Assembly: GCF_900095135.1 (NCBI RefSeq)
Contig: NZ_LT605205.1
Span: 1,860,001 to 1,924,000, forward strand
Length of the DNA: 64,000 nucleotides
Reading direction: 5' to 3'
Source of the DNA: Proteiniphilum saccharofermentans
GTDB taxonomy: Bacteria; Bacteroidota; Bacteroidia; Bacteroidales; Dysgonomonadaceae
In this document: piece by piece, positions 22,646 through 39,057 of the stretch
Numbering within the stretch: the first letter of the stretch is position 1
Layout of the letters: every line of letters begins with the position of its first letter
Translations under genes and position numbers: made by a program
Notes under the pieces: generated by a model
What the model was told of the DNA's origin: nothing
The model's input: only the letters and a program-made list of their open reading frames with translations
Databases searched by the model: none

Positions 22646-22700
22646 GATAATTGCAAATTAGAAATTAATAATCGGAATTTTTCAATTAAAATATTATAAC

Positions 22701-24059
22701 TTATGTGATTAATGCTGTCATCCCTAGTTCTGCTTCCTCTTTCAGGGAGATATCTGCCAGTTGAAGCGACAGTGATAGCTTACTATATGTCTCGTAGGAT
22801 ACATTCAACGAATTTGTATTGTATTCCGGATTGTCGGGCGAAAGAATGAACCCGCCACAATCAAAAGTGAGGGGAGCATTATAGGGGGCGTTTGAATCCT
22901 GATCTTGCCAAAAGGCAGTACCTTCAATATGCCTCCCGCTTACCGTCTGAATCGTTATATGGAAATAATCCAAGGAGAGATGCTTCCCATTTTCTATCTC
23001 CGCAATTGGAAAGTTTTTTGAAGTTGTGTGATCTTTTCCTGCTCCCGAAGGAAACCATGTTGTCACCGTAGCCTTTAGGGTGATAATGTGACGGTTGTTT
23101 CGCTTTTCCAGGAGTTTTTGCACCGTATCCATCTCTGCACCGTATAGAAGCAGTAGCTGTCCCGCTTCAAACCAATCGAAATCATACGATAGCAGCAGAG
23201 GGTTCAAGGTATGTCCATCGCCAAGCACGTTTGGATTGGCTCCCCTTTCGAGCAGATCCCGGATCAGGTCAATATCTGTATGGTCGCAAGTCACTATCGC
23301 ATGTATCAGCGGCGGAAAATCGTCTAAACCTTTATTGGGATCCGCGCCATATTTGAGTAATAATCTTGCTTTCCGAATCGTTTCTTTGGAAGGGGGATTT
23401 CTTTCTTTACCGTTTTCCCCCTCTTCAGGCAAGAGGCAATAGGAGAGGGGATACCATAATAAACCTTGATCCACCCCTTGCTTGTTTGGACTGGCACCAA
23501 GTTCAAGCAGCCATTGCATCAATTTTACCGGTTTATCGTCATAACATGCATTCAGAAGCGGCGTGCTGTCATCTCCTGCATACATGTTCGGGTCGGCTTT
23601 GTTTTCCACCAGGAACGTCAATAATTTTTTTGCATCTTTCAGGTTTTCAAAAACCTTTTTGATGGTGACATAATATAATGGGGTAGGTTGCCAGTGACGG
23701 AATGCACCGACTGAAGTCTGTACGTTGAACGTATTACCTTCGGCAATATAGCGCTCCATCAAGTCATACTCCTCAAAAGCGGCAAGGGCGGCAGGGATAT
23801 TCTCCATCTCTTCAATACCGACTATCTCTTTGATGGTTTTATCGGGATTTTCCTTTATTCTTTTGATCAGAAAAAAGTAAGGTACCAGGGTCTCGTCGAA
23901 TTGCTCTTCATTATCTCCCGTAAAGTGGGAGAAGATATCGTAAGTACGCATTGCTTCCAAAGCAATTTTCTTCCTGTTCTCAACCAACTCCTTTATCCTT
24001 CCTCTTGATAAGAGGACAGCGTTATGCGCTTCTAAAACTGCTTTTTCGTAATCATCCAT
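22701..24059 (-). CDS. Ankyrin-repeat protein
   Basis: This 452-residue soluble protein has ankyrin repeats at about 125-330: TPLYYVTIKK, KKLLTFLVENKADPNMYAGDDSTPLLNACYDD, LMQWLLELGASPNKQG, KARLLLKYGADPNKGLDDFPPLIHAI and LIRDLLERGANPNVLGDGHTLNPLL. An N-terminal helical domain and a C-terminal beta-rich domain of about 120 residues were not recognised. It lies 21 bases downstream of the SMI1/KNR4-like gene and looks like the distal part of the kinase cluster. Bacterial ankyrin proteins next to SMI1 proteins can be immunity-like, but no toxin is nearby. Confidence 0.75.
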   Translation of the reverse strand: MDDYEKAVLEAHNAVLLSRGRIKELVENRKKIALEAMRTYDIFSHFTGDNEEQFDETLVPYFFLIKRIKENPDKTIKEIVGIEEMENIPAALAAFEEYDLMERYIAEGNTFNVQTSVGAFRHWQPTPLYYVTIKKVFENLKDAKKLLTFLVENKADPNMYAGDDSTPLLNACYDDKPVKLMQWLLELGASPNKQGVDQGLLWYPLSYCLLPEEGENGKERNPPSKETIRKARLLLKYGADPNKGLDDFPPLIHAIVTCDHTDIDLIRDLLERGANPNVLGDGHTLNPLLLSYDFDWFEAGQLLLLYGAEMDTVQKLLEKRNNRHIITLKATVTTWFPSGAGKDHTTSKNFPIAEIENGKHLSLDYFHITIQTVSGRHIEGTAFWQDQDSNAPYNAPLTFDCGGFILSPDNPEYNTNSLNVSYETYSKLSLSLQLADISLKEEAELGMTALIT

Positions 24060-24080
24060 TTTTTATCTGATTTCTATCAC

Positions 24081-24812
24081 TTATACCCATGCATCATATC
24101 TGCCATCGTCGTCAGTAGATGTTTCTTCCAAATAGAGGAGTCCGGCTTGTGGGTAACCCTGCTCTGCCGCCCTGGCAAGCCAATCGAATCCGGTATCGTA
24201 GTCCTGTTCCACAACGCCGCCCTCATACATTAGCAGCATGGCCAGTTGATATTGTGCTTCCGCATTTCCGCTATCGGCCATCAAAGTGTAGTATTCCAGT
24301 ATATTCTTCGCGAAAACAGGATCCTCTTTCATCCTACTATACACCATTGAAGAAATAACCTCATTTTCCTCTGTCGGCAGGTATTTTTCTGAAATTTCTT
24401 TTTCCAGGAATTCTTCAAAACTGTTGTATTCGTTCCATATTTCAAAACTGGTAATGTCCCTCGTTTCGTATTTTTCAACGGCGGGATTAAATGTGAAAAT
24501 ATCGTCATCGACACGTCCAAAATAGAGCAGTTGATCGTTGAAAAGCTCCAGTTGTTGTTCCGAAAAGGATACAATGTCGATCAACTTAAAATTGGTCTGT
24601 GGGTCGGTTACAATATCTGTTCCGTAAAGTTCCACGCCATTGAAGGCGACTCCGTTACAATGTTTTAAAAAATCGGCATAACCGGTTGGAATGAGAGGTA
24701 GGTTGGAGTTTTCCAATTCATTGTTTGCCCACTTGATATCTTCTGCGGTGACAGGACGGACGATCATAGCATCATCCAAGAACATGATTTTACGGTAAAA
24801 AGTGCCCATCAT
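24081..24812 (-). CDS. SMI1/KNR4-like (YrhA-type) protein with Sel1 repeats
   Basis: This 243-residue soluble protein has an SMI1/KNR4-fold domain at about 20-145 (LIPTGYADFLKHCNGVAFNGVELYGTD and FEIWNEYNSFEEFLEKEI). Two Sel1-like repeats follow at about 175-230 (AEAQYQLAMLLMYEGGVVEQDYDTGFDWLARAAEQGYPQAGLLYLEE). SMI1/KNR4 domains bind partner proteins and are often immunity proteins of polymorphic toxins. Here the gene is three bases from an unrecognised gene in a signalling cluster, so an adaptor role is equally likely. Confidence 0.75.
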   Translation of the reverse strand: MMGTFYRKIMFLDDAMIVRPVTAEDIKWANNELENSNLPLIPTGYADFLKHCNGVAFNGVELYGTDIVTDPQTNFKLIDIVSFSEQQLELFNDQLLYFGRVDDDIFTFNPAVEKYETRDITSFEIWNEYNSFEEFLEKEISEKYLPTEENEVISSMVYSRMKEDPVFAKNILEYYTLMADSGNAEAQYQLAMLLMYEGGVVEQDYDTGFDWLARAAEQGYPQAGLLYLEETSTDDDGRYDAWV

Positions 24813-24815
24813 TTT

Positions 24816-25427
24816 TTATTCTAAGAAAATGACTCTTACACAGGACATTCCTGCTTTTAATTCTGTTTCCGATTGAAATTCAAAAGTACCATTTTGTTGC
24901 AGTTTTATGGTGGATTGATAAATTTCGGTAGCGTAGATAATGATGGCGTCGAGGAGGTAGCTCCCACCGTTCCGTGAAATAATGGCCGGTCGTATGGTTT
25001 TTTTCAAAAACCGCAGATCTTTCATGGAAGGCCCATCTGAAAACTCAATTTCATCCATATCTTCCACAAGCCGCAAACTGCCTTTATCCGTCCAAACGGA
25101 GTCAAGGACAAATTTAACGTACGGTACAACCGTCTTTTCGTTCAGGATCAGCCCCAATTTGCCGAGATTATTGAAAACGGCATCCCGTGTTCCTTCTATC
25201 CGGATAATGTCGTTATTCTCCTCGTTCCACAAATAGTGCATTGTGACGGGCGGTATCGTCGAAAAAGTCTGTGCCGATAACAACCGGTAATCCTTAAAGA
25301 ACGGCAACAGGGTTGTTTGAAGGTGTGTCTTTTCTTGAGTGAACAGGTCGTAGCTCGATTGGGAATTGATCAAAGGAATCAGTTCCGCATACTTTGACGA
25401 AGGGATATCTGAAAAGTTGTGTTGCAT
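24816..25427 (-). CDS. Unrecognised 203-residue soluble protein of the kinase cluster
   Basis: I do not recognise this protein. It has no signal peptide or membrane segment. Its middle shows a beta-strand pattern (MHYLWNEENNDIIRIEGTRDAVFNNLGKLGLILNEKTVVPYVKFVLDSVW) and its C-terminus another (YLLDAIIIYATEIYQSTIKLQQNG). It contains LRFLKKTIRP near residue 145, a KTIR match to the N-terminal repeats of the cluster kinase; this may be chance but is worth noting. It is tightly packed (12 bases and 3 bases) between the 449-residue membrane protein gene and the SMI1-like gene. Confidence 0.65.
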   Translation of the reverse strand: MQHNFSDIPSSKYAELIPLINSQSSYDLFTQEKTHLQTTLLPFFKDYRLLSAQTFSTIPPVTMHYLWNEENNDIIRIEGTRDAVFNNLGKLGLILNEKTVVPYVKFVLDSVWTDKGSLRLVEDMDEIEFSDGPSMKDLRFLKKTIRPAIISRNGGSYLLDAIIIYATEIYQSTIKLQQNGTFEFQSETELKAGMSCVRVIFLE

Positions 25428-25439
25428 TGCATTTATTGT

Positions 25440-26789
25440 TTATCGGTTCTTCTTCACCCTGACTATCCATAAAAATATCACGACCAGGATCAATGAGATC
25501 GACAGGAAGATTTTGATTTCCAAACTGCCGGTATTGAGATTTGAGATATTCGAGTGGGGAGATGAATCCAAAAAGCTTACCACATCAACATACGTGGAAT
25601 AGATGGTAATCGCCGAAAGGAACATAAACAGTATTTCGAGGGTATTGGAATGGCCTTTTTGTGATTCCTGCGTTTTTTCTTCAATCAGCTTCTGGATGAT
25701 CGCTTCGCTACGCTCGCAGTTCTGGCGGTTTTCGTCGTAAGGATTTTTGTCTTTGAATTTTCGCATAAACAGATTTTGCCAATGTTCAATGGCTGTTTTG
25801 CGGAAATTGATGCAGTGCAAAATATAGTGCGTGTTGATTGTCATTTTCCGTAAATCGCTTGAAGTGAAATGGTTGAAAGCACTTTCCACTTTGTCTTTTC
25901 TGAGAAATCTTTTTTTATTGGTTTTCGATAAATCGCTGTCGTTCATCAGTTTGATTATCGCGTAATTGAGATTTCCAATGGAATCGTAGGTGTTTATTTC
26001 GGCGAGTAAAAGGTTGTACGGCTCAATGATATCTTCGATTTCGACAAGCCCTGTTGTGTGGCCGGTACAAATAATTGCCGATTGGTCGATGCCGTGAACC
26101 TCAAAAGACTCCATTTTTTCATACTCATCACTGGTTCCGTAAAGTTTGCGAATATCATCTACAAGTTCCCGGCTTTCGCCCGAAAGCACCGTCAAGTCCT
26201 GATAAGTGTACATGTCGCTTTCATCAATGGATAAGACATCTTTTATCTTCAACGGAATGCCAAACCAGTCTTCACCAATCTTCACGTAATCCTGTTTTTG
26301 CAACTCTCGCAAAATTGGTTCCAGTTGCGGAGTCCATTGGTTCAATAGACGTGTAATAGCGACTTGGCGATGGCTTATTTTTTCCAGTGCAGCTACATTA
26401 TCGACCTCAAACACAAGGCGTATATTCAGATATCCGTAGTCGGTAATCCGGAATGTGCAATCGCTTAACCTGCAGCCATTAATCCCTTTCATGAGAGAGT
26501 CCCCATTATTAGTCTCTTCAATGAGAAAGAGGCCGAACCTTTTGAGTGTTTCTTCATCAGGTTGCAGGTCAATACATGGGTACAGGTTATGCCCTTCGGC
26601 CTGAACTTCCGAATAGTTGCGCCACCGGGCTGAGACCTTTCCCTGAAAAGCTTCCGGAGACGTAAAATCGACCGGTTGTTGCAAAATGGTTTGCCCTTTA
26701 ACGTTAAGTGTATCGGTAAACTTGGAGAGTTTCTTTTCGTTTACCTTGGCATGGTACATCCACATACGTGTTAAAACAAAATGAATCAT
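25440..26789 (-). CDS. Unrecognised protein with two C-terminal membrane helices
   Basis: This 449-residue protein has a long soluble N-terminal region (1-370) of mixed alpha/beta character. Two membrane helices follow near the C-terminus (about 385-405, TLEILFMFLSAITIYSTYVDV, and 425-443, IFLSISLILVVIFLWIV) and then a basic tail. This is a CorA-like layout, cytoplasm first and paired helices at the end, but no CorA GMN motif is present. It has no signal peptide. It sits in the kinase cluster, 34 bases after the SH3/zinc-ribbon membrane protein gene and 12 bases before the next gene. Function is unknown. Confidence 0.65.
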   Translation of the reverse strand: MIHFVLTRMWMYHAKVNEKKLSKFTDTLNVKGQTILQQPVDFTSPEAFQGKVSARWRNYSEVQAEGHNLYPCIDLQPDEETLKRFGLFLIEETNNGDSLMKGINGCRLSDCTFRITDYGYLNIRLVFEVDNVAALEKISHRQVAITRLLNQWTPQLEPILRELQKQDYVKIGEDWFGIPLKIKDVLSIDESDMYTYQDLTVLSGESRELVDDIRKLYGTSDEYEKMESFEVHGIDQSAIICTGHTTGLVEIEDIIEPYNLLLAEINTYDSIGNLNYAIIKLMNDSDLSKTNKKRFLRKDKVESAFNHFTSSDLRKMTINTHYILHCINFRKTAIEHWQNLFMRKFKDKNPYDENRQNCERSEAIIQKLIEEKTQESQKGHSNTLEILFMFLSAITIYSTYVDVVSFLDSSPHSNISNLNTGSLEIKIFLSISLILVVIFLWIVRVKKNR

Positions 26790-26823
26790 GATTTATAATA
26801 TTTTGTCTGAGTTTTCAATTGCA

Positions 26824-28365
26824 TTAGTATCCCGAATGAGTCGTTGTTGTATCTATATAGGAACCTTTGTATTTCCGGTCGAGTTCTTTCGATTCTTTGC
26901 GAGAACCGTATTCTTCGAACCCGCAATGCTCGCATTTGTAGGTTTGCTTATACTCGCGTACCAAATAGAGCACATCATACACATCGTTATTGTATGTGTT
27001 GGTTGTGTGTGTAACCTTTCGTTGATTGACGGCTCTCGATGATGTGCTGCCGTCGCTCCATTTTGTAATTTCTGTATCGTGTACCCATTCACTGCTCGAC
27101 CGTGAGCCAATCCTGGTACTTTTAGTCTCTTTACGCCACTCCTGATATTCGCGCATAAATTCCTCGCTGTCGTATTCAATGGTATATAACGATTTGCATT
27201 CCGGACAGCGGTTCGAGGGAAAATCATCAAACCATTCCAAGATTTTGGGTGTGAGCCACCATGTGGCAATAAGCAGTATCGGAATGAAGTACCACCAGTG
27301 TAAGGGGTAACACAAGCCCAAAACAAGCCAGATGTATGTACAAATGATAATAACAGCCCAAATAATTTTTTGGAATATGTTATTTGAAATAAAAATTAGT
27401 GGATAGCGGAAACGGAGCAAACCGAACATCAAGAATGGAATGATCTGATTGAGGAAAAAGAGAAAGCCTATTACGCCAATCAAAACGAAAACCAACAGAA
27501 TGTAGCCTGCAATTTTAAACCAGATTGGATGGCTATCTTTATCTATATCCCCTATTTCAAAGGCATTTGAAGATATTAACTGCGAGAAGAAATCCATATC
27601 AAGAAATGTAGAAACTAACGGGAGATATTTCAGGAAAAATGAGTTGGGCATTCTGATATAATCCGTAGTATAAGAAGTAGCCACACCATTTTCATAAGTA
27701 ATCGTGGGTGAGTAGAATTTGCCATCATTTTTGTCAAAAACACGCAAATCGTATTGGGCAGAGAGCCCTTTTGGAGTTTTCTTTACAAGTATGGCAGGGC
27801 GATAAAGTTTTTCATTCTCTTCAAAAGTTTTTCCGATATATTTTTCCTCAAATTTCTTTTTCGAGAGATAATAGTCGCCTCCATTGTATTCGTATTTGAG
27901 CAGGTTATTACCTGTGAGGGTTGTAAGATTGTGAACACGAACTTCACCTTGCTCTCCGTCCACGGTTTTGAACTCCATCATCCGGTTATACTGGTCGCCG
28001 GTTTGTTCCAAGAATGTTACTGTATCACCGTTCTTTACCGCAGTTTTCTCATTCTCGGTAATTAATTCCACATTATAGATAATACCTTTGTTGTCTACGG
28101 CTTCCTGCGGTATCCATCCCCTCTGTCCATCTTTTGTTGCTACCAGAAAGCGAAAATCGCTAAAATCGACTCCCAGAATGGTCAGTGAATCACCTTTGTC
28201 AATAGTGGCAAAATCATCTTTAAAGTCGGAAAGTTGTGTCTTTTGAATGGCAGCAACACCCATATTGGCCGGTTTGTTTCTCGGGATACTGTTATAAATT
28301 ACTACACCAACAAGAATCAGTGACAAGACGAAAAATAGAAATGTACGGTCGAAAAAATGTTTCAT
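26824..28365 (-). CDS. Membrane protein with bacterial-SH3-like and zinc-ribbon regions
   Basis: This 513-residue protein starts with a membrane helix (TFLFFVLSLILVGVVIY). An SH3-like periplasmic region follows (DSLTILGVDFSDFRFLVATKDGQRGWIPQEAV and a second half-repeat). After about residue 275 comes a block of four or so membrane helices. The cytoplasmic C-terminus has two CxxC pairs (CPECKS and CEHCGF) about 80 residues apart, separated by a charged stretch. It may couple envelope state to the cytoplasmic kinase cluster, since zinc-ribbon pairs recur in several products of the cluster. I do not know the family. Confidence 0.65.
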   Translation of the reverse strand: MKHFFDRTFLFFVLSLILVGVVIYNSIPRNKPANMGVAAIQKTQLSDFKDDFATIDKGDSLTILGVDFSDFRFLVATKDGQRGWIPQEAVDNKGIIYNVELITENEKTAVKNGDTVTFLEQTGDQYNRMMEFKTVDGEQGEVRVHNLTTLTGNNLLKYEYNGGDYYLSKKKFEEKYIGKTFEENEKLYRPAILVKKTPKGLSAQYDLRVFDKNDGKFYSPTITYENGVATSYTTDYIRMPNSFFLKYLPLVSTFLDMDFFSQLISSNAFEIGDIDKDSHPIWFKIAGYILLVFVLIGVIGFLFFLNQIIPFLMFGLLRFRYPLIFISNNIFQKIIWAVIIICTYIWLVLGLCYPLHWWYFIPILLIATWWLTPKILEWFDDFPSNRCPECKSLYTIEYDSEEFMREYQEWRKETKSTRIGSRSSSEWVHDTEITKWSDGSTSSRAVNQRKVTHTTNTYNNDVYDVLYLVREYKQTYKCEHCGFEEYGSRKESKELDRKYKGSYIDTTTTHSGY

Positions 28366-28419
28366 ATTTTTATTATGTTGTGTGTTTGAATGATAGTTTT
28401 GTATTTGATTATAATGTAA

Positions 28420-29166
28420 TTAGCTTATAATTTTTAATAATATCACGCTTACATTATCCTTGCCGCCCGCATTTTTTGCCGCTGTTATCAGGGCTTCTGC
28501 AGATGGATTTTCAGTCAGTATCCGCTCTGTTTCTTCGTCGGGAAGCATATCGGAAAGTCCGTCGGAACAGATAAGATACAAATCCTCTTCCAATAGTTGT
28601 CCACCCAGGTTTTTGATGTCGATAAAAGCCGACTCTCCCGCTCCCAACGAGTTGTAAATCTGGTTGGAATCCTGTGAAAGGCCGCCTGTGAGCTGTCGTA
28701 TCGAATGGTCGGTAGTCAACTGTTTGAGGATGCCACCACGAAAACGGTAAAGCCTGCTGTCGCCGATATTCAATGCAAAAACCATCTCCCCGTAAAAAAG
28801 CAGTCCGCAAAAAGTGCTCCCCATTCCTTCACATCCGGGTAATTCGTGACTTTTCCTGAGGATAAGACGGTGTGTTTCTTCCGTCCAGCGTTTCAGGGAT
28901 GAAGCAACTTCGTCTTCATCCAGTCCTTCCGGCAAGGCGAGTATGAAATCATCGAAGCATCTAAGGGCAATTTCCGAAGCAAATTCTCCACCGTCGTGCC
29001 CGCCCATACCGTCGGCGACAACGGCTGCGAACCGTGCGGTATCTGAAAGCTCAAAGATTTGTTTCGCACTCCTGTCGCGGAAAAATTCGCCGCCGAACAG
29101 GATCATGTCTTCGTTGTTGACCCTGACGCAACCAATATCGCTGTTTATTTCCGATTTTAGAAGCAT
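28420..29166 (-). CDS. PP2C-family serine/threonine phosphatase
   Basis: This 248-residue cytoplasmic phosphatase contains the metal-binding motifs of bacterial PP2C (Stp) enzymes: RVNNEDMILFG, VADGMGGHDGGEFAS, NIGDSRLYRFRGG, LICSDGLSDML and GGKDNVSVIL. It removes phosphate from Ser/Thr residues and is the expected antagonist of the kinase at 33073-36474. The FHA gene ends 23 bases upstream in the same direction, completing a kinase/phosphatase/FHA set. Confidence 0.93.
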   Translation of the reverse strand: MLLKSEINSDIGCVRVNNEDMILFGGEFFRDRSAKQIFELSDTARFAAVVADGMGGHDGGEFASEIALRCFDDFILALPEGLDEDEVASSLKRWTEETHRLILRKSHELPGCEGMGSTFCGLLFYGEMVFALNIGDSRLYRFRGGILKQLTTDHSIRQLTGGLSQDSNQIYNSLGAGESAFIDIKNLGGQLLEEDLYLICSDGLSDMLPDEETERILTENPSAEALITAAKNAGGKDNVSVILLKIIS

Positions 29167-29189
29167 AGTATCAGTATTTGTATTTATAT

Positions 29190-29681: not shown

Positions 29682-29715
29682 ATTCTTTCTTTTAGATGTG
29701 CAGTTGATGATTTAG

Positions 29716-32700
29716 TCAGGGGGTGGGGAAGTCTTCCACTCTCAATTCTTTATATTCATTTTTGTCAAAACCGGGCTCATACATCCGTTTCTCAAGGCGG
29801 CTGCTTTGCCTTCTCTTTACACGGTCGAAATAATTTCCGACTTCACGGGCATTGGCAAAGTTGCGGCTCCTGTTTTCATATAGATTGTTAAAGTAGTCCT
29901 TCATCACTGTTTCGGCCTCGGGTGTGAGGTGAAGTTGGTCTTTGGAGGCTTTCATCAGGAATATCCGGGTCATCTCTTCGCCTGTATAATCCTCAAAACG
30001 GATGGTTTTTGTGAAACGGCTTTCCAATCCGCTGTTGGTGTTGATCCATTGTTGTATTTCACGTGGATAGCCGGCGGCGATGAATACCATTTTTCCTTTG
30101 TAATCGAGCATCAGCGGTAAGAGAGTGTTGGTGGCTTCCTGTCCGAAATCACCGCTGCCCTCACTTTTGAGGGAATAGGCTTCGTCAATGAAAAACACGC
30201 CGCCAATGGCACTTTTTACTTTTTCTTTTGTGTTCGGCGCTGTCTGGCCTACATAGCCGATCACCAGGTCTTCGCGCTTCACCTCCACCAATTTGTTGGT
30301 TGGCAGCACGTCCAATGCATGGAATATATCGGCCATAATTCGGGCAACGGTTGTTTTACCCGTTCCCGGATTGCCCACAAAAAGATAATGGTCGGCGACT
30401 CCCTGGAATTTTTTACCCAGATCTTCCGCTTTTTTCCGTTCCACTTTGATATAATCGGCTATTTCTTTTATCTCCTGTTTCACGTTATTCAGCCCGATCA
30501 GTTGATTGAGTTCGCGGAAAATATCCTCTTCATTGAGGGCTTTCGGTGGATCGTAAGGAATATCTTCCGCCTCAAAAATATGGTATGCTTCATCGGGAAG
30601 GATTTCGCCGTTATCTTCTCTTGCCATAAGCCTGTTGGCCCTGCGTGTATCGGCTTGTTCCAGCAGTTTCACCATTTCACCCGCGTTTCCAAAGTTCTCA
30701 CGCTTAGCGTCGACCATTTGTACAACCAATTTTTTCAAAACGATGATTGCCTCGTCCGTCAGAATATCCCTGTTCTTCTTCGCGTTCAGCATGAATATTT
30801 CGACGAGCTGGCCGGGCGTGTAATCCTCTATGTGAAGCTTGGCGGTAAAACGCCGTTCCAGACCGGGATTCGCATTGCGGATAAACTGTTCTATCTCGTT
30901 ACGGTAACCTGCGACAATCACCACAAATTTTCCCGCATCTTCGCTCATGCGTGTCATAAGGGTTTCCACAGCCTCTTTTCGTGTGCCGTCCGTGTATCCC
31001 TGCCTGTCGGCAAGGCCATACGCTTCGTCAATCAAAAGAACTCCACCCATGGCTTCATCGCAGGCCTTGTTGGTCTTTGTCCCCGTTTCGTTGACGATGG
31101 AACTTTGCAGGTCTTCGGGTTTTTTTACTACCACTTTCGAAGAAGGCAGCAAACCGATGGCTTTAAAAATTTCTCCGAGTTTATTGGCAATAGTGGTTTT
31201 TCCTGTTCCGGGATTACCCGTGAGCGCGATATGAAGGTTGGTCAGTTTGGCATCACCCAGGCCCTTCTCCATTTTCCGCCGGTTAAATTCCAGTTTGTTA
31301 GCCAAATCAAATATCTCGCGTTTGACGCTGTCCATACCGATGAATTCGTCGAGTTCGGCAAATATGGCGTTGAGGTCTTTTTCTTTTATGTTCTCTTCGC
31401 CTTCGATATCGGCACGGGTAAGCACCGAAAGTATATCCCGCGTTATTCCGGTCGTGGAACGAAGTTTCTGCAACCGCAAACTCCGGTTACCGATAGCCTT
31501 TTTAAGTGTGTTCAGCACTTCCCGGGCATTGCCGAAGTTATTTTTGTCGCGGGCGATATAGATCTTTTTGAAATAATTCTGAAGATGCTTATCGGCCTCT
31601 TCGTCAAGGGTCAGTCCCTCTTTTTTTGCCATGCGACGGAATATTTCACTCAATTCCTCCGGTTTATAGTCGCGGAAATTGACTGTTTCGTTGAACCGGG
31701 ATCCCAAGCCTGAATTGGTACCCAGGAAATCCGCCATTTCTTTGGTATAACCTGCCGCTATGCAGACGAATTTTCCCCGGTTGTCTTCCATCAATTTCAG
31801 AAGCGTATTAATAGCGTCTTTTCCGAAATCATTTCCCGCCAAATCATACGCTTCGTCAATGAACAACACCCCTCCCATTGCCTTGTCTACCGCATCGGCG
31901 GTAGCTTGCGCGGTTTGGCCGACGTATCCTGCGATCAGGTCTTTTGCGGCGACCTCTACCAGATGGCCGCTTGGCAGCGCCTCGATGGAAGCCAAAATAT
32001 CGGCAAAGATGCGCGCGATGGTGGTTTTACCGGTTCCCGGATTACCCAGAAAGAGGAAATGGTCTGCTATTTCACGTTTGGCGTTGCTGCCTTTCAGTTC
32101 ATGTTCATCGTTTATCTTATTGATAATTTTCTGTACGGTGGTTTTTATCTCGTCAATGCCTACAAACTCATCGAGTTCAGCCATGATATCATCGTAGGTT
32201 TTTTCCTTGAACTCTTTGCCTGTGATATCATCTGCTTCGAAAGTCGTTGCGTTAAAGTCGCGTTGTATAGCCTTTTGCCATATCTGTTCGGCTTTTTTTA
32301 CGGCAAAATGGCCGTTATTGCCAAACAGGAAATCCTCATGCTGATTGCGGAAAGCGTACTTGAAAACGCGTTCGAGTTTGGCTCGGGCATCATCGCCGGG
32401 TTCTAATTTATAGGTGTTTTTCAGTGTGGTGGTGCAGATGTCACAAAGTTCCGAAGCACTGCAATTGGCCAGTTCAAAATGATATTCGAAACGGCTTGCT
32501 ATGTCGGCGTTTGCACGCATAAAAGCGTTTAATCCCGTTAATCCCGAAAGGATAACAATGGGGTCGTTGTTCCATTCGCCGTTCATGCATTTGAAGAGTT
32601 TGTCGAGTTTGTTAATATCATCGGACTCTCTTTGCGGAACAAGTTTCTGTGCGTTTTCAATTACCAATAAGCCTCCTTTGGCCTTAGCGATATTTTCATC

Positions 32701-33063
32701 CCATTTATCTTCCTTCGAAAAGTTTTCATAATCCACTGCATCTATCATTTCCGCTTTTGGATTTTTGATGATTCCTGTAGAGTGAAGCAGCGATTGAATG
32801 ACTCCTATCAGTTTGGTTTTTCCGGTTCCGGTATTGCCGGTGATGACCATATCCATACCGGGACGGATTTTTACACCTGTTTTTTTTGCCCTTAGCGCCA
32901 ACATCTCACAGATTTTCACCAGATCATTCAAACGGTTCTTTACCTGCTCCATTCCTACTAAATCCTGTAAGGGGGCATTTGATTTTATAATGACGTTTTC
33001 ACCGCAATATTTACAGAAAACAGCTTTATCACGATTGGTTTTATTGCATTTCGGACAATCCAT
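29716..33063 (-). CDS. Zinc-ribbon protein with four CbbX/SpoVK-like AAA+ modules
   Basis: This 1115-residue protein starts with a zinc ribbon (CPKC at 3-6, CKYC at 17-20). Four AAA+ modules follow, with Walker A motifs at 76-83 (GNTGTGKT), 340-347, 616-623 and 897-904 (GNPGTGKT each). Modules 2-4 have Walker B IDEAY and the sensor GY of the CbbX/SpoVK/EccA group. Module 1 has VIENA instead of IDEA, so it may bind but not hydrolyse ATP. Proteins of this group remodel other proteins; a single chain with four modules could make its own ring-like assembly. It lies nine bases after the kinase gene and 34 bases before the FHA gene. Confidence 0.88.
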   Translation of the reverse strand: MDCPKCNKTNRDKAVFCKYCGENVIIKSNAPLQDLVGMEQVKNRLNDLVKICEMLALRAKKTGVKIRPGMDMVITGNTGTGKTKLIGVIQSLLHSTGIIKNPKAEMIDAVDYENFSKEDKWDENIAKAKGGLLVIENAQKLVPQRESDDINKLDKLFKCMNGEWNNDPIVILSGLTGLNAFMRANADIASRFEYHFELANCSASELCDICTTTLKNTYKLEPGDDARAKLERVFKYAFRNQHEDFLFGNNGHFAVKKAEQIWQKAIQRDFNATTFEADDITGKEFKEKTYDDIMAELDEFVGIDEIKTTVQKIINKINDEHELKGSNAKREIADHFLFLGNPGTGKTTIARIFADILASIEALPSGHLVEVAAKDLIAGYVGQTAQATADAVDKAMGGVLFIDEAYDLAGNDFGKDAINTLLKLMEDNRGKFVCIAAGYTKEMADFLGTNSGLGSRFNETVNFRDYKPEELSEIFRRMAKKEGLTLDEEADKHLQNYFKKIYIARDKNNFGNAREVLNTLKKAIGNRSLRLQKLRSTTGITRDILSVLTRADIEGEENIKEKDLNAIFAELDEFIGMDSVKREIFDLANKLEFNRRKMEKGLGDAKLTNLHIALTGNPGTGKTTIANKLGEIFKAIGLLPSSKVVVKKPEDLQSSIVNETGTKTNKACDEAMGGVLLIDEAYGLADRQGYTDGTRKEAVETLMTRMSEDAGKFVVIVAGYRNEIEQFIRNANPGLERRFTAKLHIEDYTPGQLVEIFMLNAKKNRDILTDEAIIVLKKLVVQMVDAKRENFGNAGEMVKLLEQADTRRANRLMAREDNGEILPDEAYHIFEAEDIPYDPPKALNEEDIFRELNQLIGLNNVKQEIKEIADYIKVERKKAEDLGKKFQGVADHYLFVGNPGTGKTTVARIMADIFHALDVLPTNKLVEVKREDLVIGYVGQTAPNTKEKVKSAIGGVFFIDEAYSLKSEGSGDFGQEATNTLLPLMLDYKGKMVFIAAGYPREIQQWINTNSGLESRFTKTIRFEDYTGEEMTRIFLMKASKDQLHLTPEAETVMKDYFNNLYENRSRNFANAREVGNYFDRVKRRQSSRLEKRMYEPGFDKNEYKELRVEDFPTP

Positions 33064-33072
33064 AGTTTTAAT

Positions 33073-36000
33073 TTACTTGACAAAAATGAAATCTACCTGT
33101 TTTTTGGTTGTATAGTTTTGATAAGTTCCTGAAAACTCCGTGAAATCATCGTTGAATTTTCCGTTGTATTCGCCATCGAGATTCCCGTTGTTGGAGTGCA
33201 CATCGTCGAAATGAAAAGTCTTGTCTGCCATATTGATGGTGCCTTTTAAACTTTCGGAGATCATCTCCCGGTACTTTACGCTGATAGAGGCCTCTGCCGT
33301 TTCTTTTTCCACCTTGGAAATGATAAAAGTCGCTTCGCGTTGGTCGAACGTTCCTTTCCATTCTCCCTGTAAAACGGTGTATTGTTGTTGTTTTGCGAAT
33401 TTTTTGGTAGCTGCTATGCCTGAAATGGAAACAAAGCCGAAAGCAATCACTCCCAGCACGATAATGGAGACCCAGGGAACGATCAGTTTCCGGTAGAATG
33501 TTTTTGTATTTTCCCCGATATCACAGGTTAAATCGGATACCCGGTCTTCGATAGAAGATTTGAAATATTCACCTTCCCCGGCATTGAAAGCAAAATTCAA
33601 TGGTTCCACAATGCGCTCTTCAGGGGACGGATCGAATAAATCCCTGTTTGTTCGTTTGCTGGCAGGTGATTTCACAATACGAATCACCATAAAAACCAGC
33701 ATTGTAACCAATAGCGCGGAAGCGAGATAAACCAGATAAGGCGCGAGGAAAAGCAGCCCGAAATATGTGGCAACTGCGAAAAGCGCTCCTATCAGCAGAC
33801 ATCCCAGACAACCGAGATCGTGGCTTATATCATACATGGCATATACCGTGGCGCTGATGCCCGCCATCGCAGCCACGATATATATCCATGAGGAATGGAA
33901 ATCCCTGTCCCGGGGAACATCCAGGGTCAACAGGCCGTAAATCACTATAGCCGACGCGATAAAAGTAAGGGTACCCACAATGGTTTTCGAGAGCAGGTTA
34001 AACCTGTATTTCCGATTTAAGCTGTTCACGCTCTCTTCGAGTTGGTTTGTTGCGATACGGTAATTTTCTACATCTTCGTGGTTCTTATCTAATTTTTCCA
34101 ACAGAGTCATGTACTGGTCGGTAGCCTCTTCATAGGCGAATTGGGGCGAAAGGTCGCGGTGAGGGTCTTCCTGGAAGAAAATCGTCAGCCATGCCTCCAA
34201 ATAACCTTTTTCCAATTCTTCCTTTATTTCCTTTTTCGGAATTTGTTCCAACTCGTTGAGTGTAAATACATATTTATCATTTTTCGGGAAATAGTAGAAA
34301 GGATCGTAGCCAAGTCCTGCGATAGCTTTGTAAATAGCTATTTTCCAGTCATACGGGCCGGCTTTGTTCGTGTTCTCTTTTGACTCGATATCGGCACAAT
34401 ATTTTATCCAGTCGATTTTATCGTCGTAAACGCCCCCTTTCGATTTGAAGTAATGATAAAGTCGCGTATCGTCAATATCCAGCATTATATCCAGTTGTCC
34501 GCTTGCATATGAGTCATTATCTTCATGCTGGATATATTCATCCAAATGCATATTCATGTAGTCGCCTATTTCTGCCGCAGTAAAAAAATAGTTATCGGCA
34601 TTTTCGTCGAGTACAAAATTGTAGGATACTTTCGGGTTAAGATTATAGAGCACTATCCAAATATTTTCGTCATGTCCCTTGATCGAGCGGATTTTTCCTT
34701 CCAGCGCCTTGTCTCGTGTACCTATCCATGTAAGAAAGCTTTCCGTTAATAAATCTTCATTTGATTGGTCGCTGATAGTGAAATCCATATCGGTAAGGTC
34801 TCTGTACGTGAGGTGAAGGATATCATTGATGGTGTGGCATTCAACTGTTTCTCCGCCTTCACAGGCAATTGTCCAGGGCAAAGAAGGATCGAGCGCATAG
34901 ATAAGCCGGAGCATTGCATCGCGGTTGTCTTTGCCTTTTTTAAACAGCGGAACCAGTTTGTTCACTTCCCCGCGTCCTGTGGTGTTGAGATAAATGAAGA
35001 GCTTGTCGTTCTTATCCGCCAGGGCCTGACTGTAATAGTCGAAATTTTCCTTGAGTGTGGCTGCTATCTCTTCGTTTTCTTCTATGGCCCGGTTGTTGAT
35101 ATCGACATATTTCAGGCTCGGGTCGAGAAAGTAGCAGGCTGCCCAAAAACCGGCTTCCTTGTTTTTGGGGAATTGGTTATCGGTAATCTCGTCAACCGGA
35201 TTCGACAGTTCCGTAAAGTTTATCTCTTTGAGCCACGCTGAAATTTGTCCCCTGTATAAATAGGTGGTTGCCAGTTTCTGGTCTTCAAGCATGAATTTCA
35301 CCAACTCCTCACGCGATTTCGCAATCTGCTTTTTTGAAGCGTTATAGACAATATTGAAGAGGATGTTTTCCTCGTTGTATATATCTTCGCCTTTCGCCCA
35401 GTTTACGACTTCTTTAAAACCCGCGCGCTTTTCGGGATCGGCAATGGTTAAAGCTTTGACAAGTTGCAACAGGCGCGGCGGCATATCCTGCGGGTAGGGG
35501 AGTTTGTTGTTCTGTTTCAATGTCCATAAGACACGTTCTCCGGGCGCACGGTATCTTTCTTCACCACCTTCCCAAAGCACGAGCAGCATCATACCCAGCG
35601 AATAGAAGTCCATACTTTTGGTAATGGTGATTCTATCGATGATCACATAATATTCGGGGGCGGCGTAGATTTTGGTACGCATCTGGATCTTTACTTTGGC
35701 TTCGCCGTTTTTGTCGCACCGGATAGCGATACCGAAATCGGCAAGCGAAAGGTCTTCTACCTTGTTCTCCTCTTTTTGGAAAAAGAAATTGGCCGGTTTT
35801 ACATCGCGGTGGATAACCTGCTTTGAATGAAGGAAATTGAGGCAGGCAGCGCACTTAATCGCGATTTCGCTCAAAAGCCGTTCACCTTCTGAATTGTGGC
35901 TGATGGTAATCTGGTTGAGCGAGCCACCTCTACAATATACCATTAATTCGTAATAGTGTTGTTGTCCGGTCTTTGGATTTGTCCAAAACCCATGATGAAG

Positions 36001-36474
36001 CGTGTCCACAAGAAAAGTCAGGGAAGGATTACCTGAATTTTGACGGACAATTTCTATGATATCCTTATCCGGCTCAATATCGGTTTTGTAGAGTTTGAGG
36101 GCAAATTGGTTCTTGCCGTCTTCTACAAGGTAAACGTCGGCTTCGCCCGTACCTTCGGAAAGGGAATCGACCACACTATAATTGATGTTGTTCAGCAAAA
36201 AACCGGTTTGTTCGGTTTGCCGTTCGATCTGGCGGACGACTTTGTCGATCTCTTCCTGCCTTTCAGGGCGCATGGTTTTTTCCGCTGTTACCGTACCCCG
36301 TATGGTTTTATCCACGCTTGTTTCTCCCCGTGTGGTTTTATCTGCAGCCCTTGTTGTTTTTTCCACACCGGTTCCGCCGCCTCTTATTGTTTTTTCAGTG
36401 CTTATTTTGGGACGCATGGTCTTATCTGCTGCATTGTCAGCTGGTCTGATTGTTTTTTCGATATCGCTCATCAC
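33073..36474 (-). CDS. Transmembrane serine/threonine kinase with seven N-terminal KT-x-R repeats
   Basis: This 1133-residue protein begins with seven copies of [ED]KT[IMT]R[PGA]; the Thr residues are 8, 19, 29, 40, 47, 57 and 67. The kinase domain (about 100-365) is complete: Lys127 in FALKLYK, IHRDVKPAN with Asp224, LADFG with Asp246, and APE at 272-274. Residues 440-780 contain four degenerate repeats of 80-110 residues, with cores LDPSLKY, LDPSLPW, LNPKVSY and YDPFYYF. Membrane helices fill about 825-935 and 997-1022, and the last 110 residues form a beta-rich, probably extracytoplasmic domain (LQGEWKGTFDQREATFII). It likely autophosphorylates the repeats and recruits the FHA protein. Confidence 0.9.
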   Translation of the reverse strand: MMSDIEKTIRPADNAADKTMRPKISTEKTIRGGGTGVEKTTRAADKTTRGETSVDKTIRGTVTAEKTMRPERQEEIDKVVRQIERQTEQTGFLLNNINYSVVDSLSEGTGEADVYLVEDGKNQFALKLYKTDIEPDKDIIEIVRQNSGNPSLTFLVDTLHHGFWTNPKTGQQHYYELMVYCRGGSLNQITISHNSEGERLLSEIAIKCAACLNFLHSKQVIHRDVKPANFFFQKEENKVEDLSLADFGIAIRCDKNGEAKVKIQMRTKIYAAPEYYVIIDRITITKSMDFYSLGMMLLVLWEGGEERYRAPGERVLWTLKQNNKLPYPQDMPPRLLQLVKALTIADPEKRAGFKEVVNWAKGEDIYNEENILFNIVYNASKKQIAKSREELVKFMLEDQKLATTYLYRGQISAWLKEINFTELSNPVDEITDNQFPKNKEAGFWAACYFLDPSLKYVDINNRAIEENEEIAATLKENFDYYSQALADKNDKLFIYLNTTGRGEVNKLVPLFKKGKDNRDAMLRLIYALDPSLPWTIACEGGETVECHTINDILHLTYRDLTDMDFTISDQSNEDLLTESFLTWIGTRDKALEGKIRSIKGHDENIWIVLYNLNPKVSYNFVLDENADNYFFTAAEIGDYMNMHLDEYIQHEDNDSYASGQLDIMLDIDDTRLYHYFKSKGGVYDDKIDWIKYCADIESKENTNKAGPYDWKIAIYKAIAGLGYDPFYYFPKNDKYVFTLNELEQIPKKEIKEELEKGYLEAWLTIFFQEDPHRDLSPQFAYEEATDQYMTLLEKLDKNHEDVENYRIATNQLEESVNSLNRKYRFNLLSKTIVGTLTFIASAIVIYGLLTLDVPRDRDFHSSWIYIVAAMAGISATVYAMYDISHDLGCLGCLLIGALFAVATYFGLLFLAPYLVYLASALLVTMLVFMVIRIVKSPASKRTNRDLFDPSPEERIVEPLNFAFNAGEGEYFKSSIEDRVSDLTCDIGENTKTFYRKLIVPWVSIIVLGVIAFGFVSISGIAATKKFAKQQQYTVLQGEWKGTFDQREATFIISKVEKETAEASISVKYREMISESLKGTINMADKTFHFDDVHSNNGNLDGEYNGKFNDDFTEFSGTYQNYTTKKQVDFIFVK

Positions 36475-36544
36475 TGTTGAATGATATATTCTTTTATACT
36501 TTTACCGCAATAACTGGTTTCGGTCGCTTCACGAAATAGTGGAT

Positions 36545-37504
36545 TCAAATCTCTTGCCTTACCCAGACACTGGTATCCCTATCTTCAAAAATCCATGTCC
36601 CGCCCTTAAACGGTTCCGCACAATCATTGGGTTTCTCGTGTACACAACCGTAAGCATTGCATTTCCAGCCGACTTTCACTTTTGTTTTTGTGATGATTTC
36701 TATTTTTACAGCGGTATAATAGTCACGTTGCATTTGCGGTGTCATCCCGGGGTCGGGGATCAGAGAGTTGAGTATTTTTTTCATTTCCTCCAATTTTGCC
36801 TTGTATTGTGCCCACGCCTCTTCTTTGCCTGGTATGTTGAGAGAGAAAGTTTTTCGTGGTTTTGGTTCCGTCACCGGCAATTTCGGGGTTTCCGTTCTTT
36901 CCTCGTACTTTTGTCCGCGAAAAACGGCCAGTAATTCTTTGTATTGGTTTACAAATTCGCGGTTTTCATCCGAAAGTTCCGGTATTTCTGTCGACGTTGC
37001 CTCTTCTCCGGTTTGGGAAAGAAGGAAGTCTTCGAGTACGGCAAGTTCTTCGGCAATGGCGAGCGCTTTCTTCAATTCGGGTTTTTGCCGTATCTGTTGC
37101 AACGCCTCCTGAGCCAAAGCATTGAGCGGTGTATTGCATTTACGGCAAAAACTGCGGAAATTGAGCGTTTGACAGCCCGGGCACATGATGCCTGTTTTAG
37201 GATTACCGCATTCCGGGCAAAACATATCATTGCTGCTTGTTTTAGCTCCGCAGAATGAACAGAGTTCAGCATGCAGGTTTTGCCCGCAATGGGGACAAAT
37301 TTCCCAATTGGCTTCCGTAGCCGCTCCGCAGCGCACACAGGCGTTTGCTTTCAGATTCATTCCACATTCGGGACAGAACTTATCGGCAGCAGTATGCGCC
37401 ATGCCGCAGTTAGGACATTGGTAACTTTTTACCTCAACATGTTGGGTATGTTGTTTTAGTTCCTGCTTTTGTTGCTGTTGAGTTTGGTGTTGATTTCCAC
37501 TCAT
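36545..37504 (-). CDS. Multi-zinc-ribbon protein at the head of the kinase cluster
   Basis: This 319-residue protein has a Gln/His-rich start, then about five tandem zinc ribbons at residues 28-135 (CPNCGMAHTAADKFCPECG, CVRCG...CPHCG, CSFCG...CPECG, CPGC...CRKC). A helical middle and a C-terminal domain of about 70 residues (MQRDYYTAVKIEIITKTKVKVGW...WIFEDRDTSVWVRQ) follow. Such double-zinc-ribbon arrays usually bind proteins or nucleic acid. As the first gene of the cluster and with ribbons like those of the AAA+ and FHA products, it could be a scaffold. The kinase gene starts 70 bases downstream. Confidence 0.8.
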   Translation of the reverse strand: MSGNQHQTQQQQKQELKQHTQHVEVKSYQCPNCGMAHTAADKFCPECGMNLKANACVRCGAATEANWEICPHCGQNLHAELCSFCGAKTSSNDMFCPECGNPKTGIMCPGCQTLNFRSFCRKCNTPLNALAQEALQQIRQKPELKKALAIAEELAVLEDFLLSQTGEEATSTEIPELSDENREFVNQYKELLAVFRGQKYEERTETPKLPVTEPKPRKTFSLNIPGKEEAWAQYKAKLEEMKKILNSLIPDPGMTPQMQRDYYTAVKIEIITKTKVKVGWKCNAYGCVHEKPNDCAEPFKGGTWIFEDRDTSVWVRQEI

Positions 37505-37528
37505 AATTTTTAACAGTTAACTTGCCTG

Positions 37529-37536
37529 CGAAAATA
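37529..37536 (-). promoter_or_regulatory. Probable -7 element of the kinase cluster
   Basis: On the minus strand this reads TATTTTCG, one base from TAnnTTTG. Transcription would begin near 37522, about 18 bases before the zinc-ribbon start codon. No TTG is found 20 bases upstream, which would suit an activator-dependent promoter. Confidence 0.4.
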
Positions 37537-37560
37537 GTGAACGGTAGGAAATAAGTGCGT

Positions 37561-37600
37561 GTCAGTACAACAAAAAACAAGTCAATACAACAAAAAACAG
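37561..37600 (-). promoter_or_regulatory. Tandem 20-bp direct repeat, likely AraC-type activator site
   Basis: Two adjacent 20-bp units, GTCAGTACAACAAAAAACAA and GTCAATACAACAAAAAACAG, differ at two positions. They lie between the membrane-anchored AraC gene and the kinase cluster, about 40-80 bases upstream of the predicted start of transcription. AraC-family monomers bind direct repeats spaced by about two helical turns, so this is a strong candidate target of the neighbouring regulator. Confidence 0.6.
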
Positions 37601-37744
37601 TGAAATGAACTATTTATTATTAGACCCTATCCATCTGTTCTTGTAGTGGGTTGATGTTTGATGAAAGTATTATTATGTTCGAAAAGGTCAGATTATTTTA
37701 ATTTTCCGGGAATATAATTTGGTGTTTTTCGGAGAATTAAAATA

Positions 37745-38803
37745 CTACTGATGATGGTTTCTATACTCTGAAGGATTACACCGTTTTATTTTGGAAAAAG
37801 ACCGGCTGAAAGTAGAGAGTGAATTAAAACCACACTCTTCGGCTATTTGTTCGATTGTCTGTTTTCTTTCGTTTACAAGTAGTTCACATGCCATTTCGAC
37901 GCGGAAAGCATTTACATAATCATAAAATGTAGTATCTAAATGTTTATTCAAATAGTTGGAAAGATATGTCCGGTTTGTACTGATGGCCGATGCGACATCG
38001 GTTATGTTTAACTTCGGATTGAGATAGAGTTTATCTTTTTCCATCGCTTGTTTCAAGGTTTCGGCAAACTGGTAAGGACAATCGTTTTCCTCAGATTCTT
38101 TGCTTGCTACCTCTTCTTTCCGGAAACGATAGAGTATATCGGGCATTTCTATAACGGCATGTTGCAAGGTGTAAAAATAGATAAAACCCCATACTGCGAT
38201 AGTTACCAGGTAATAAAGTGCGTCTCCCCACCAATTTTCGTATTGCAGGATAAAAAACCACAAGGCAAGGTATAAAAACAGAATAACAATGGTGGTCCGC
38301 ACCCATGAAACGCTTAACCCTTTCGTATAAGAAAAGTTTTTCTTCACATAATTGTCGTACCGTGCCGAAGCCATAAAAACCACCAGCAGGGCAATGACGC
38401 CGAGTAGAAGGCTGTATGCAGTTACCCAATGGAACAGCGTATCTGAAGGGATAAAAATCAGTAAAAGCGATAGGATAATGGACGGAGTAATCAAAGTAAA
38501 TGTACGGCGCACTGTTATCCAGCCGGGCGACATTAATTCGAACAGAAACAGCATGGTGAATGGAATAATCCACATATCAAGGCTTAGGAGTATGCGTGTG
38601 AGATAATCGGTGTACCATACGCCTTCGATAAGATACACCATATCTTTCATTTCTATAAACGCAAAGAAAATCACCTCATAGAATAAAAACCAGAGCAGCC
38701 GGCTCTTGTTTTGCTGCCAATACAAATGGGCGCCGACAAAAATAAAAAACATGAATGCCATCCCATGTGTAAAATGGGCGATATTCTCAGGAAAAGTTTC
38801 CAT
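37745..38803 (-). CDS. Membrane-anchored AraC-family transcriptional regulator
   Basis: This 352-residue protein has six or seven membrane helices in residues 8-225. A short cytoplasmic linker and a double helix-turn-helix AraC domain follow at about 255-350 (LNITDVASAISTNRTYLSNYLNKHLDTTFYDYVN and IEQIAEECGFNSLSTFSRSFSKIKRCNPSEYR). It probably senses a membrane or extracellular signal and binds DNA without a separate kinase. The tandem 20-bp repeat in the 240-base gap just downstream is its most likely target, which would place the kinase cluster under its control. Confidence 0.85.
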   Translation of the reverse strand: METFPENIAHFTHGMAFMFFIFVGAHLYWQQNKSRLLWFLFYEVIFFAFIEMKDMVYLIEGVWYTDYLTRILLSLDMWIIPFTMLFLFELMSPGWITVRRTFTLITPSIILSLLLIFIPSDTLFHWVTAYSLLLGVIALLVVFMASARYDNYVKKNFSYTKGLSVSWVRTTIVILFLYLALWFFILQYENWWGDALYYLVTIAVWGFIYFYTLQHAVIEMPDILYRFRKEEVASKESEENDCPYQFAETLKQAMEKDKLYLNPKLNITDVASAISTNRTYLSNYLNKHLDTTFYDYVNAFRVEMACELLVNERKQTIEQIAEECGFNSLSTFSRSFSKIKRCNPSEYRNHHQ

Positions 38804-38817
38804 GATAAATTTTTTGA

Positions 38818-38825
38818 CAAAGATA
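38818..38825 (-). promoter_or_regulatory. -7 element of the AraC-family gene
   Basis: TATCTTTG is read on the minus strand. Transcription would start near 38811, about eight bases before the start codon at 38803, giving a nearly leaderless mRNA. Confidence 0.5.
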
Positions 38826-38889
38826 TTAATTTTTCTTCCCCTTCCTGTTTTTTTCCTAATTTGTTGTTTTGTTGTCCTATAAAAGTAAA

Positions 38890-38919: not shown

Positions 38920-39057
38920 CTTTAGTGTATCAGGAAGAAGTAAACTCGAACTCTTTTTTAGAAGATTTAAATTACGTACATCGACCGCCATGCAGGTAAA
39001 AGGGACTCATTTCATTTTTATTTAGCTGACAGTTATCAGCAAATAATCACATCAGAA

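Follow-up and report, generated by a model that had tools for sequence, protein, structure and literature searches.

Introduction

The FHA switches GarA and OdhI of actinobacteria are small FHA proteins that carry a phosphorylatable threonine of their own, are fed by kinase docking and act on metabolic enzymes without AAA+ or zinc-ribbon partners. The TerY-P triad consists of a kinase and a PP2C phosphatase, sometimes with zinc ribbons, together with a vWA (TerY) protein. Here, we analyse a gene cluster of Proteiniphilum saccharofermentans that encodes a membrane Ser/Thr kinase, an FHA protein and a PP2C phosphatase along with zinc-ribbon proteins and a multi-module AAA+ chain. The cluster lies in a stretch of 64,000 nucleotides (the window; positions 1,860,001 to 1,924,000 of contig NZ_LT605205.1) from a complete genome of 4.41 Mb in a single contig, and coordinates are given as window positions. 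Two further described systems share parts of this combination. In the type VI secretion system (T6SS), the kinase PpkA is reported to phosphorylate Fha and to form condensates to which structural components are recruited (PMC12607579). The prophage kinase-kinase-phosphatase system (KKP) comprises two adjacent kinases, one with a cold-shock and one with an FHA domain, plus a PP2C (PMC11341870).

We establish a five-gene unit with its usual gene order and patchy distribution, the conserved residues of its FHA, PP2C and AAA+ proteins, threonine arrays in its kinase tails and a degenerate first AAA+ module. On balance, we favour the reading that these five core genes form a self-contained, membrane-sensed phosphothreonine assembly switch that would control a concatenated AAA+ remodeller.

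Five genes form the conserved unit

The original prediction had described ten tightly packed minus-strand genes, with gaps of 3-70 bases, as one candidate signalling system. The packing and the domains were confirmed from the open reading frames (ORFs) and from Pfam and NCBIfam: ten minus-strand ORFs span 22701-37504, separated by 70, 9, 34, 23, 54, 34, 12, 3 and 21 bases, and the earlier domain assignments of all ten proteins hold. As judged by neighbourhood comparison, the conserved unit is nevertheless five genes, not ten. In the window, the core comprises the following features (lengths in amino acids, aa):

36545..37504, minus strand: core gene 1, zinc-ribbon protein, 319 aa, eight CxxC motifs (double zinc ribbons, Pfam/NCBIfam)
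33073..36474, minus strand: core gene 2, membrane Ser/Thr kinase, 1133 aa (Pkinase E 5e-28)
36243..36474, minus strand: N-terminal kinase tail with threonine repeats, a candidate docking array for FHA (seven KTxR motifs, compared with shuffles)
29716..33063, minus strand: core gene 3, zinc-ribbon AAA+ chain, 1115 aa, four CbbX/SpoVK-like modules (four AAA plus AAA_lid_6)
29190..29681, minus strand: core gene 4, zinc ribbon plus FHA adaptor, 163 aa (FHA E 2.3e-15)
28420..29166, minus strand: core gene 5, PP2C phosphatase, 248 aa (PP2C_2 E 1e-10)

A scan of a genome collection with the FHA alignment yielded 79 loci from the best 80 of 362 confirmed relatives. In total, 88 loci were examined (loci are denoted L and genomes G), and removal of seven duplicates (L007, L066, L070, L077, L084, L098, L100) left 81. 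A locus was counted as core if it held an AAA chain of at least three modules plus a kinase or FHA gene. This applied to 49 of the 81 loci, a lower bound given the best 80 of 362 relatives (at least 49 overall), from Bacteroidales, Chitinophagaceae, Ignavibacteria, Spirochaetes and Burkholderiales. All five core genes were recognised in 33 of the 49, and 29 of these 33 complete loci had the order zinc ribbon-kinase-AAA+-FHA-PP2C, small insertions allowed; the order differs in L076, L081, L094 and L099. Because the same five genes recur elsewhere, and mostly in this order, they co-occur more often than by chance, which upholds the predicted unit of kinase, PP2C, FHA and AAA+. Among the 16 incomplete loci, eight were cut by a contig end (L044, L063, L073, L085, L089, L101, L103, L106); in the other eight, which were not cut, a gene was lacking or below the thresholds used. 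The 32 loci outside the core rule included 24 FHA loci of Chloroflexi, Bacillota and Actinobacteria; parts of the core were present in L067, L088, L090 and L095, in the last with the AAA gene split into two ORFs.

As 42 of the 49 core loci entered via FHA, the presence of FHA there reflects selection, and checks started from the kinase and the AAA+ chain therefore matter. All five full-length kinase matches from the family and class searches (G000, G005, G013, G120, G640; G005 is L053 and G120 is L062) were in complete five-gene clusters. The AAA+ search of 296 phylum genomes, which like the class kinase search scored two candidates per genome among the matches listed, gave five further chains matching from the N-terminal zinc ribbon on. 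Four of these sit in the order zinc ribbon-kinase-AAA+-FHA-PP2C, one with a SUKH-type gene inserted, and the contig of the fifth begins at the AAA+ gene, followed by FHA and PP2C. All six listed chains whose match includes the N-terminal zinc ribbon are thereby part of the cluster, to the extent that their contigs cover it. None of seven other CbbX-type AAA loci (L045-L051) had a kinase, FHA or PP2C of the core kind nearby; a 166-aa ORF of L050 gave a match to the model of the kinase C-part. Five of these loci (L045, L046, L047, L050, L051) encode AAA chains with two or three CbbX-like modules and a length of about 870-1300 aa that stand without core-type neighbours. Across 39 loci, the pairwise distances computed for kinase, PP2C, FHA and the last AAA module were correlated with r of 0.64-0.78, compared with a permuted maximum of 0.20-0.32.

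The claim that the set matches no named system held in the domain libraries and the literature searched. No description of the five-gene unit was found among the papers listed from the open PubMed Central library, which does not include most subscription papers and bioRxiv preprints.

Threonine-rich kinase tails and matching sites in FHA proteins

The first 140 residues of the window kinase contain 7 KTxR motifs (KTIRP, KTMRP, KTTRG etc.), compared with a mean of 0.11 and a maximum of 2 in shuffled sequences. Comparable tails were analysed in 47 kinases, with a tail length of at least about 30 residues; L093 and L099 each contributed two kinases. Threonine was enriched in 46 of the 47, followed by proline (39), glutamine (32), serine (31) and alanine (31), and threonine-centred repeats were matched by fewer than 1% of shuffles in 29. 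The repeat sequence is lineage-specific, with forms such as KTLRP, KTLKPD, EPTRKAG, ATAVP, GTAVAPQ, GTARIDA, STQRLDD, STLKMNP, GTQVI and GGTVR.

In the FHA proteins, residues G90, R91, S107 and H110 were kept in 43 of 43 relatives and N130 in 42 of 43; we take the Arg, Ser and His/Asn positions to be the phosphothreonine-binding residues of FHA proteins. A single copy of the repeat motif occurs in the linker of the FHA protein in many Bacteroidales, and at its C-terminus in Ignavibacteria, some Spirochaetes and others. The motif of a locus's own kinase was found in FHA proteins at 2.06 per 1000 aa (12 matches, 10 in the linker or tail and two inside the domain), compared with 0.00-0.20 per 1000 aa in other protein classes and 0.95 for the motifs of other loci in FHA proteins. 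FHA and kinase motifs matched better within than between loci, with P 1e-4 for 10 loci with C-terminal motifs. The covariation was also seen in 33 loci that are not independent (P < 5e-5) and in 12 representatives with <45% kinase identity, which are near independence (P 0.016).

AAA+ chain, zinc-ribbon protein and phosphatase

The AAA+ chains of the core have 3-6 CbbX-like modules behind an N-terminal zinc ribbon. In the window, the Walker B motif reads IEN in module 1 and IDE in the other modules, and the Walker-B glutamate was absent from the first module in 41 of 49 loci. Lys-Asp-Glu-Arg was kept in 97 of 97 middle modules and in 48 of 49 last modules. The window modules scored over the cut-offs of the SpoVK, EccA and CbbX models alike. 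One chain of 1677 aa (L044:156-5189) contains six CbbX-like modules and may form a full AAA+ ring on its own. In L062 and L162, the AAA chain is directly followed, before the FHA gene, by a 174-aa ORF that matches a single AAA module, perhaps a duplicated module or a frame break. In two Odoribacteraceae loci (L054:11541-13412 and L055), a protein of 623-624 aa with a single AAA module directly follows the PP2C and may be a lineage-specific partner.

The zinc-ribbon protein encoded by core gene 1 is likely a scaffold. DZR was found in 27 of 27 relatives scanned, which share a conserved C-terminal W-C-H-P-C-GG-W segment, and the gene lies upstream of the kinase and AAA genes in 34 of 49 loci. 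The PP2C catalytic motifs were present in 43-44 of 44 PP2C matches; the window protein matched the NCBIfam Stp1 model with E 9e-46, below the cut-off of that model.

Kinase architecture

The window kinase consists of the N-terminal tail, the kinase domain with the catalytic motifs HRDVKPAN and DFG, a helical part, five predicted transmembrane helices and a C-terminal eight-stranded beta-barrel. Among 44 kinases, a strict HRD-type pattern was found in 29, HKD or HMD in 10 and neither in 5, and a DFG-type motif in 41. Five transmembrane segments were predicted in 28 of 42 kinases, in the window with a positive loop before the last. The barrel has the eight-stranded fold of the calycin type (lipocalin/avidin-like). 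It dominated the fold search, rather than the helical part (model residues 1-430), and no new fold is claimed for the latter. No Pfam family was found in the window kinase after the catalytic domain, and a sequence search of the PDB gave matches mainly around the membrane segments (best E 2e-4). Ankyrin repeats occur in the kinase part of 2 of 30 relatives; they were assigned by eye to the Spirochaete kinases of L094 and L101, in which they fill much of the post-catalytic part. Two other Spirochaete clusters, L093 and L099, encode two kinases each.

Distribution and apparent mobility

The five-gene set is rare, patchy and apparently mobile. Full-length relatives of the kinase part were found in 3 of 101 family genomes and, among the matches listed, in 3 of 395 class genomes, the source genome being included in both counts. 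The same-genus genome G010 is collinear with the window (90-91% identity, blastn) up to 16982 and from 39036, and the two ends lie one base apart in its locus L145; the 22 kb between them are therefore present or absent as a block:

16983..39035, no strand: block absent from the same-genus genome G010, locus L145 (blastn)

In G012, genes for CotH and a PAS/hemerythrin protein (73-78% identity) run directly into window-related ABC transporter genes (48-74%), so that the BACON gene is missing there together with all ten cluster genes and AraC. No direct repeats of at least 9 bases were found between the two junction neighbourhoods. Another locus of the genus, L008, groups with a Bacteroides locus and not with the window (SH-like approximate likelihood-ratio test 100, quick tree without bootstrap), which suggests a separate acquisition.

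A plasmid search with the AAA+ protein returned AAA proteins of <60% identity in 269 records, and the single record opened, from Bacteroides finegoldii, had an AAA ATPase gene with no such cluster around it. Phage records searched with the kinase part gave 0 matches, and viral contigs gave three matches only, confined to the zinc ribbon.

The cluster is flanked within the block by a CotH-like protein (17092-18699) and a hemerythrin-PAS-DUF1858 protein (18909-20606), whose genes are missing at this place in G010. Between the latter gene and the cluster lies a BACON-domain protein (20777-22645) with a HELCHTW motif, metallopeptidase-like by eye; its gene was not seen alongside the flanking genes in G010 or G012.

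Accessory and neighbouring genes

The remaining genes of the window cluster and its upstream neighbour are as follows:

26824..28365, minus strand: accessory gene 6, membrane protein, 513 aa, weak SH3-like segment, CxxC pairs
25440..26789, minus strand: accessory gene 7, membrane protein, 449 aa, no Pfam/NCBIfam family over cut-off
24816..25427, minus strand: accessory gene 8, soluble protein, 203 aa, carries KKTIRP
24081..24812, minus strand: accessory gene 9, YrhA/SUKH plus Sel1 protein, 243 aa (Pfam/NCBIfam)
22701..24059, minus strand: accessory gene 10, ankyrin-repeat protein, 452 aa (Pfam)
37745..38803, minus strand: neighbour, membrane-anchored AraC-type regulator, 352 aa (HTH_18 E 5e-20)

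Counting the window, genes 6-10 occur in only 2-6 of the 49 core loci: the 513-aa protein in 4 (relatives in L008, L053, L065), the 449-aa protein in 2 (L065), the 203-aa protein in 5 (L008, L053, L056, L065), the SUKH-type similarity cluster in 6 and the ankyrin protein in 3 (L053, L065). With these counts, and with different downstream genes elsewhere, the reading as one system of ten genes was rejected. The AraC-type DNA-binding domain assigned earlier was confirmed, and a relative in L007 has five transmembrane segments, but the gene is found in 3 of 49 loci (upstream of the cluster in L053 and L065); it was rejected as a constant regulator and is not supported as part of the system.

The 513-aa, 449-aa and 203-aa proteins matched no Pfam or NCBIfam family over cut-off. 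A search with the 513-aa protein, which covered 199 relatives, found it at full length only in its own genome and two of the same genus, with two more partial matches, and the neighbourhoods of the same-genus relatives repeat the cluster. A protein that matches SH3_3 and, weakly, a zinc ribbon is encoded in L093 between the AAA gene and the first of the two kinases; it recalls this 513-aa protein. The KTIRP of the 203-aa protein was rejected as a conserved site, as it is not kept in the relatives of L008 and L056.

Downstream genes vary by lineage, with homoserine O-succinyltransferase and peptidase U32 in Prevotella and a mixed set elsewhere, including porin and sugar-nucleotide enzymes. Upstream of the first gene of the cluster, a Bacteroides-type promoter pattern had 0 matches, compared with 8 in the window (2.5 expected). 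Sigma-70-like sites (46 in the window, 35 expected, standard deviation 6) and terminator-like sites (18, with 19 expected) showed nothing specific.

Discussion

Like the original prediction, we infer sensing and protein remodelling as the function, here assigned to the five-gene core. In the assembly switch that we favour, the inner-membrane kinase would sense an envelope signal, in the window lineage through its C-terminal lipocalin-like beta-barrel, which is predicted to be periplasmic. Going by the motif signatures, the kinase would then phosphorylate the threonines of its own N-terminal array; in many lineages, it would also act on the FHA protein, at the single matching site in its linker or C-terminus. 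The FHA domain would dock on the phosphothreonines, so that one active kinase could gather several adaptors, and the zinc ribbons, present on adaptor, scaffold protein and AAA+ chain alike, would bring the AAA+ chain to the site. There, the chain, with a first module devoid of the catalytic Walker B and intact modules behind it, could remodel a client protein, until the PP2C strips the phosphates and resets the switch. More speculatively, and with some doubt on our part, the assembly may be a phosphothreonine-driven condensate or polymer, in which the tandem phospho-tag of the kinase and the matching FHA tag form a self-specific, lineage-specific code that recruits a dynein- or midasin-like AAA+ remodeller made of a single chain, whose degenerate first module would be regulatory.

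Several observations weigh against the switch or parts of it. The first AAA+ module keeps its Walker-B glutamate in 8 of 49 loci, including one that a contig end truncates. Of 44 kinases, 5 (L075, L081, L091, L094, L101) gave no match to H-x-D-x-K-x-x-N and 3 none to a DFG-type motif; some kinases may therefore lack activity or have diverged beyond the reach of the pattern. Prevotella, Ignavibacteria and Spirochaete versions of the kinase lack the beta-barrel or have a different one, and the sensor step is therefore not general. Repeats of proline (21 of 47 tails), lysine (20) and aspartate (15) also beat the shuffles, because tandem repeats enrich every letter in them; the telling signal is therefore the constancy of threonine. 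The tested motif form occurs in only 16 of 43 FHA proteins (residues 51-110 or last 12), a count that misses sites beyond residue 110, as in L054, L055 and L059. Among the 12 representatives, L068, L081 and L106 had low own-locus scores, and that of L074 did not exceed the others. The shared motif is absent from two FHA proteins, those of the window and of L053. The phosphothreonine docking of the original prediction gains support from the repeat tails and from a matching tag in many FHA proteins, but not in that of the window. Exact KTxRP-type sites numbered 8 in the whole genome (three in the kinase) and 7 in the reversed control. Finally, no neighbour was consistent enough in the neighbour tables of the core loci to stand out as a client.

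The main rival to the assembly switch, which we consider unlikely, is anti-phage or anti-plasmid defence, where phage damage or an inhibitor would unbalance the kinase against the PP2C and the phosphorylated FHA-AAA+ assembly would arrest the cell or dismantle a phage complex, comparable to KKP. The mobility and patchiness of the cluster are compatible with this, and KKP demonstrates that kinase-phosphatase modules can be defence systems (PMC11341870). Against it, the ten window proteins did not match any PADLOC system as a set, and no nuclease or toxin domain was recognised in the five core proteins (Pfam, NCBIfam). The neighbours of the core were mixed: the scan, which covered 94 of 135 listed proteins (of 164 selected), gave PADLOC matches at 1e-10 in 9 families, with 1-2 proteins each. 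The phage and viral searches described above, with the kinase part unmatched in phage records and three zinc-ribbon-limited matches in viral contigs, point the same way.

Far less probable is control of an envelope or secretion machine whose genes lie elsewhere, in analogy to PpkA/PppA/Fha and T6SS and with an EccA- or ClpV-like role for the AAA+ chain. The trio of activities is the same, the PpkA-Fha mechanism offers a parallel (PMC12607579), and the AAA+ modules score above the cut-off of the EccA model of the type VII secretion system (T7SS). The SpoVK and CbbX models were over their cut-offs too, however, and ClpV remained far below its own (34.7 of 884.95 bits). No secretion gene was among the listed neighbours of the core loci. 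The VipB sheath family (PF05943) was found in 0 of 10 cluster genomes, although the control matched only in E. coli and a divergent Bacteroidales sheath could escape, and WXG100 (PF06013) was likewise found in 0 of 10; because of these two negative searches, we lowered an already small probability by half. That the genes are common signalling genes, loosely linked without joint function, is hardly credible: each domain type is widespread, and the uncut loci without a recognised gene and the complete loci in another order would fit, but the common order across families and classes, the correlated distances, a shared motif found mostly in the kinase and FHA proteins and the seven unlinked CbbX-type AAA loci all speak against it.

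If the assembly switch is correct, eukaryotic-like phosphothreonine signalling and a concatenated AAA+ motor are joined in one transferable unit of gut and environmental bacteria. The covariation of the tags, if true, would show how private specificity is maintained between a bacterial kinase and the FHA protein that reads it, which is testable with short peptides.

Membership of the cluster in T6SS, T7SS, TerY-P, KKP or MADS was rejected. No T6SS structural genes were recognised among the ten window proteins (Pfam, NCBIfam; best 25 matches for the AAA protein), and the TagH-type FHA model TIGR03354 reached only 27.9 bits against a cut-off of 120.25. No EccC/EssC ATPase was reported for the ten proteins in the same scans, no genome-wide search having been made. 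Kinase-PP2C-vWA and other conflict systems have been compiled, and the five-gene set is not among them in the part of that survey accessible to us (PMC7159879). Compared with TerY-P and other vWA-linked systems, the window cluster has no vWA family among its ten proteins (Pfam) and has the FHA adaptor and CbbX-like chain instead. For the MADS and PD-T4-6 defence systems, only kinase-domain and AAA-domain PADLOC matches were obtained among the ten proteins, and not the full set. With KKP, the cluster shares a kinase and PP2C in one cluster, an FHA domain and signs of horizontal spread; it differs in having one kinase, no cold-shock domain in the Pfam scan, the FHA domain on a separate protein, an AAA+ chain and no phage carriage found. 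The likeness to CbbX, SpoVK and EccA lies in the AAA module family and the lid domain, whereas the core has 3-6 modules per chain behind an N-terminal zinc ribbon, the first of them mostly degenerate. The likeness to PpkA/PppA/Fha lies in a membrane Ser/Thr kinase with a periplasmic C-terminus, a PP2C and an FHA protein, a gene trio that stands together in the window cluster. In contrast to that trio, the window FHA domain is fused to a zinc ribbon, and the core adds a multi-module CbbX-like AAA+ chain, a zinc-ribbon protein and a threonine-repeat tail on the kinase.

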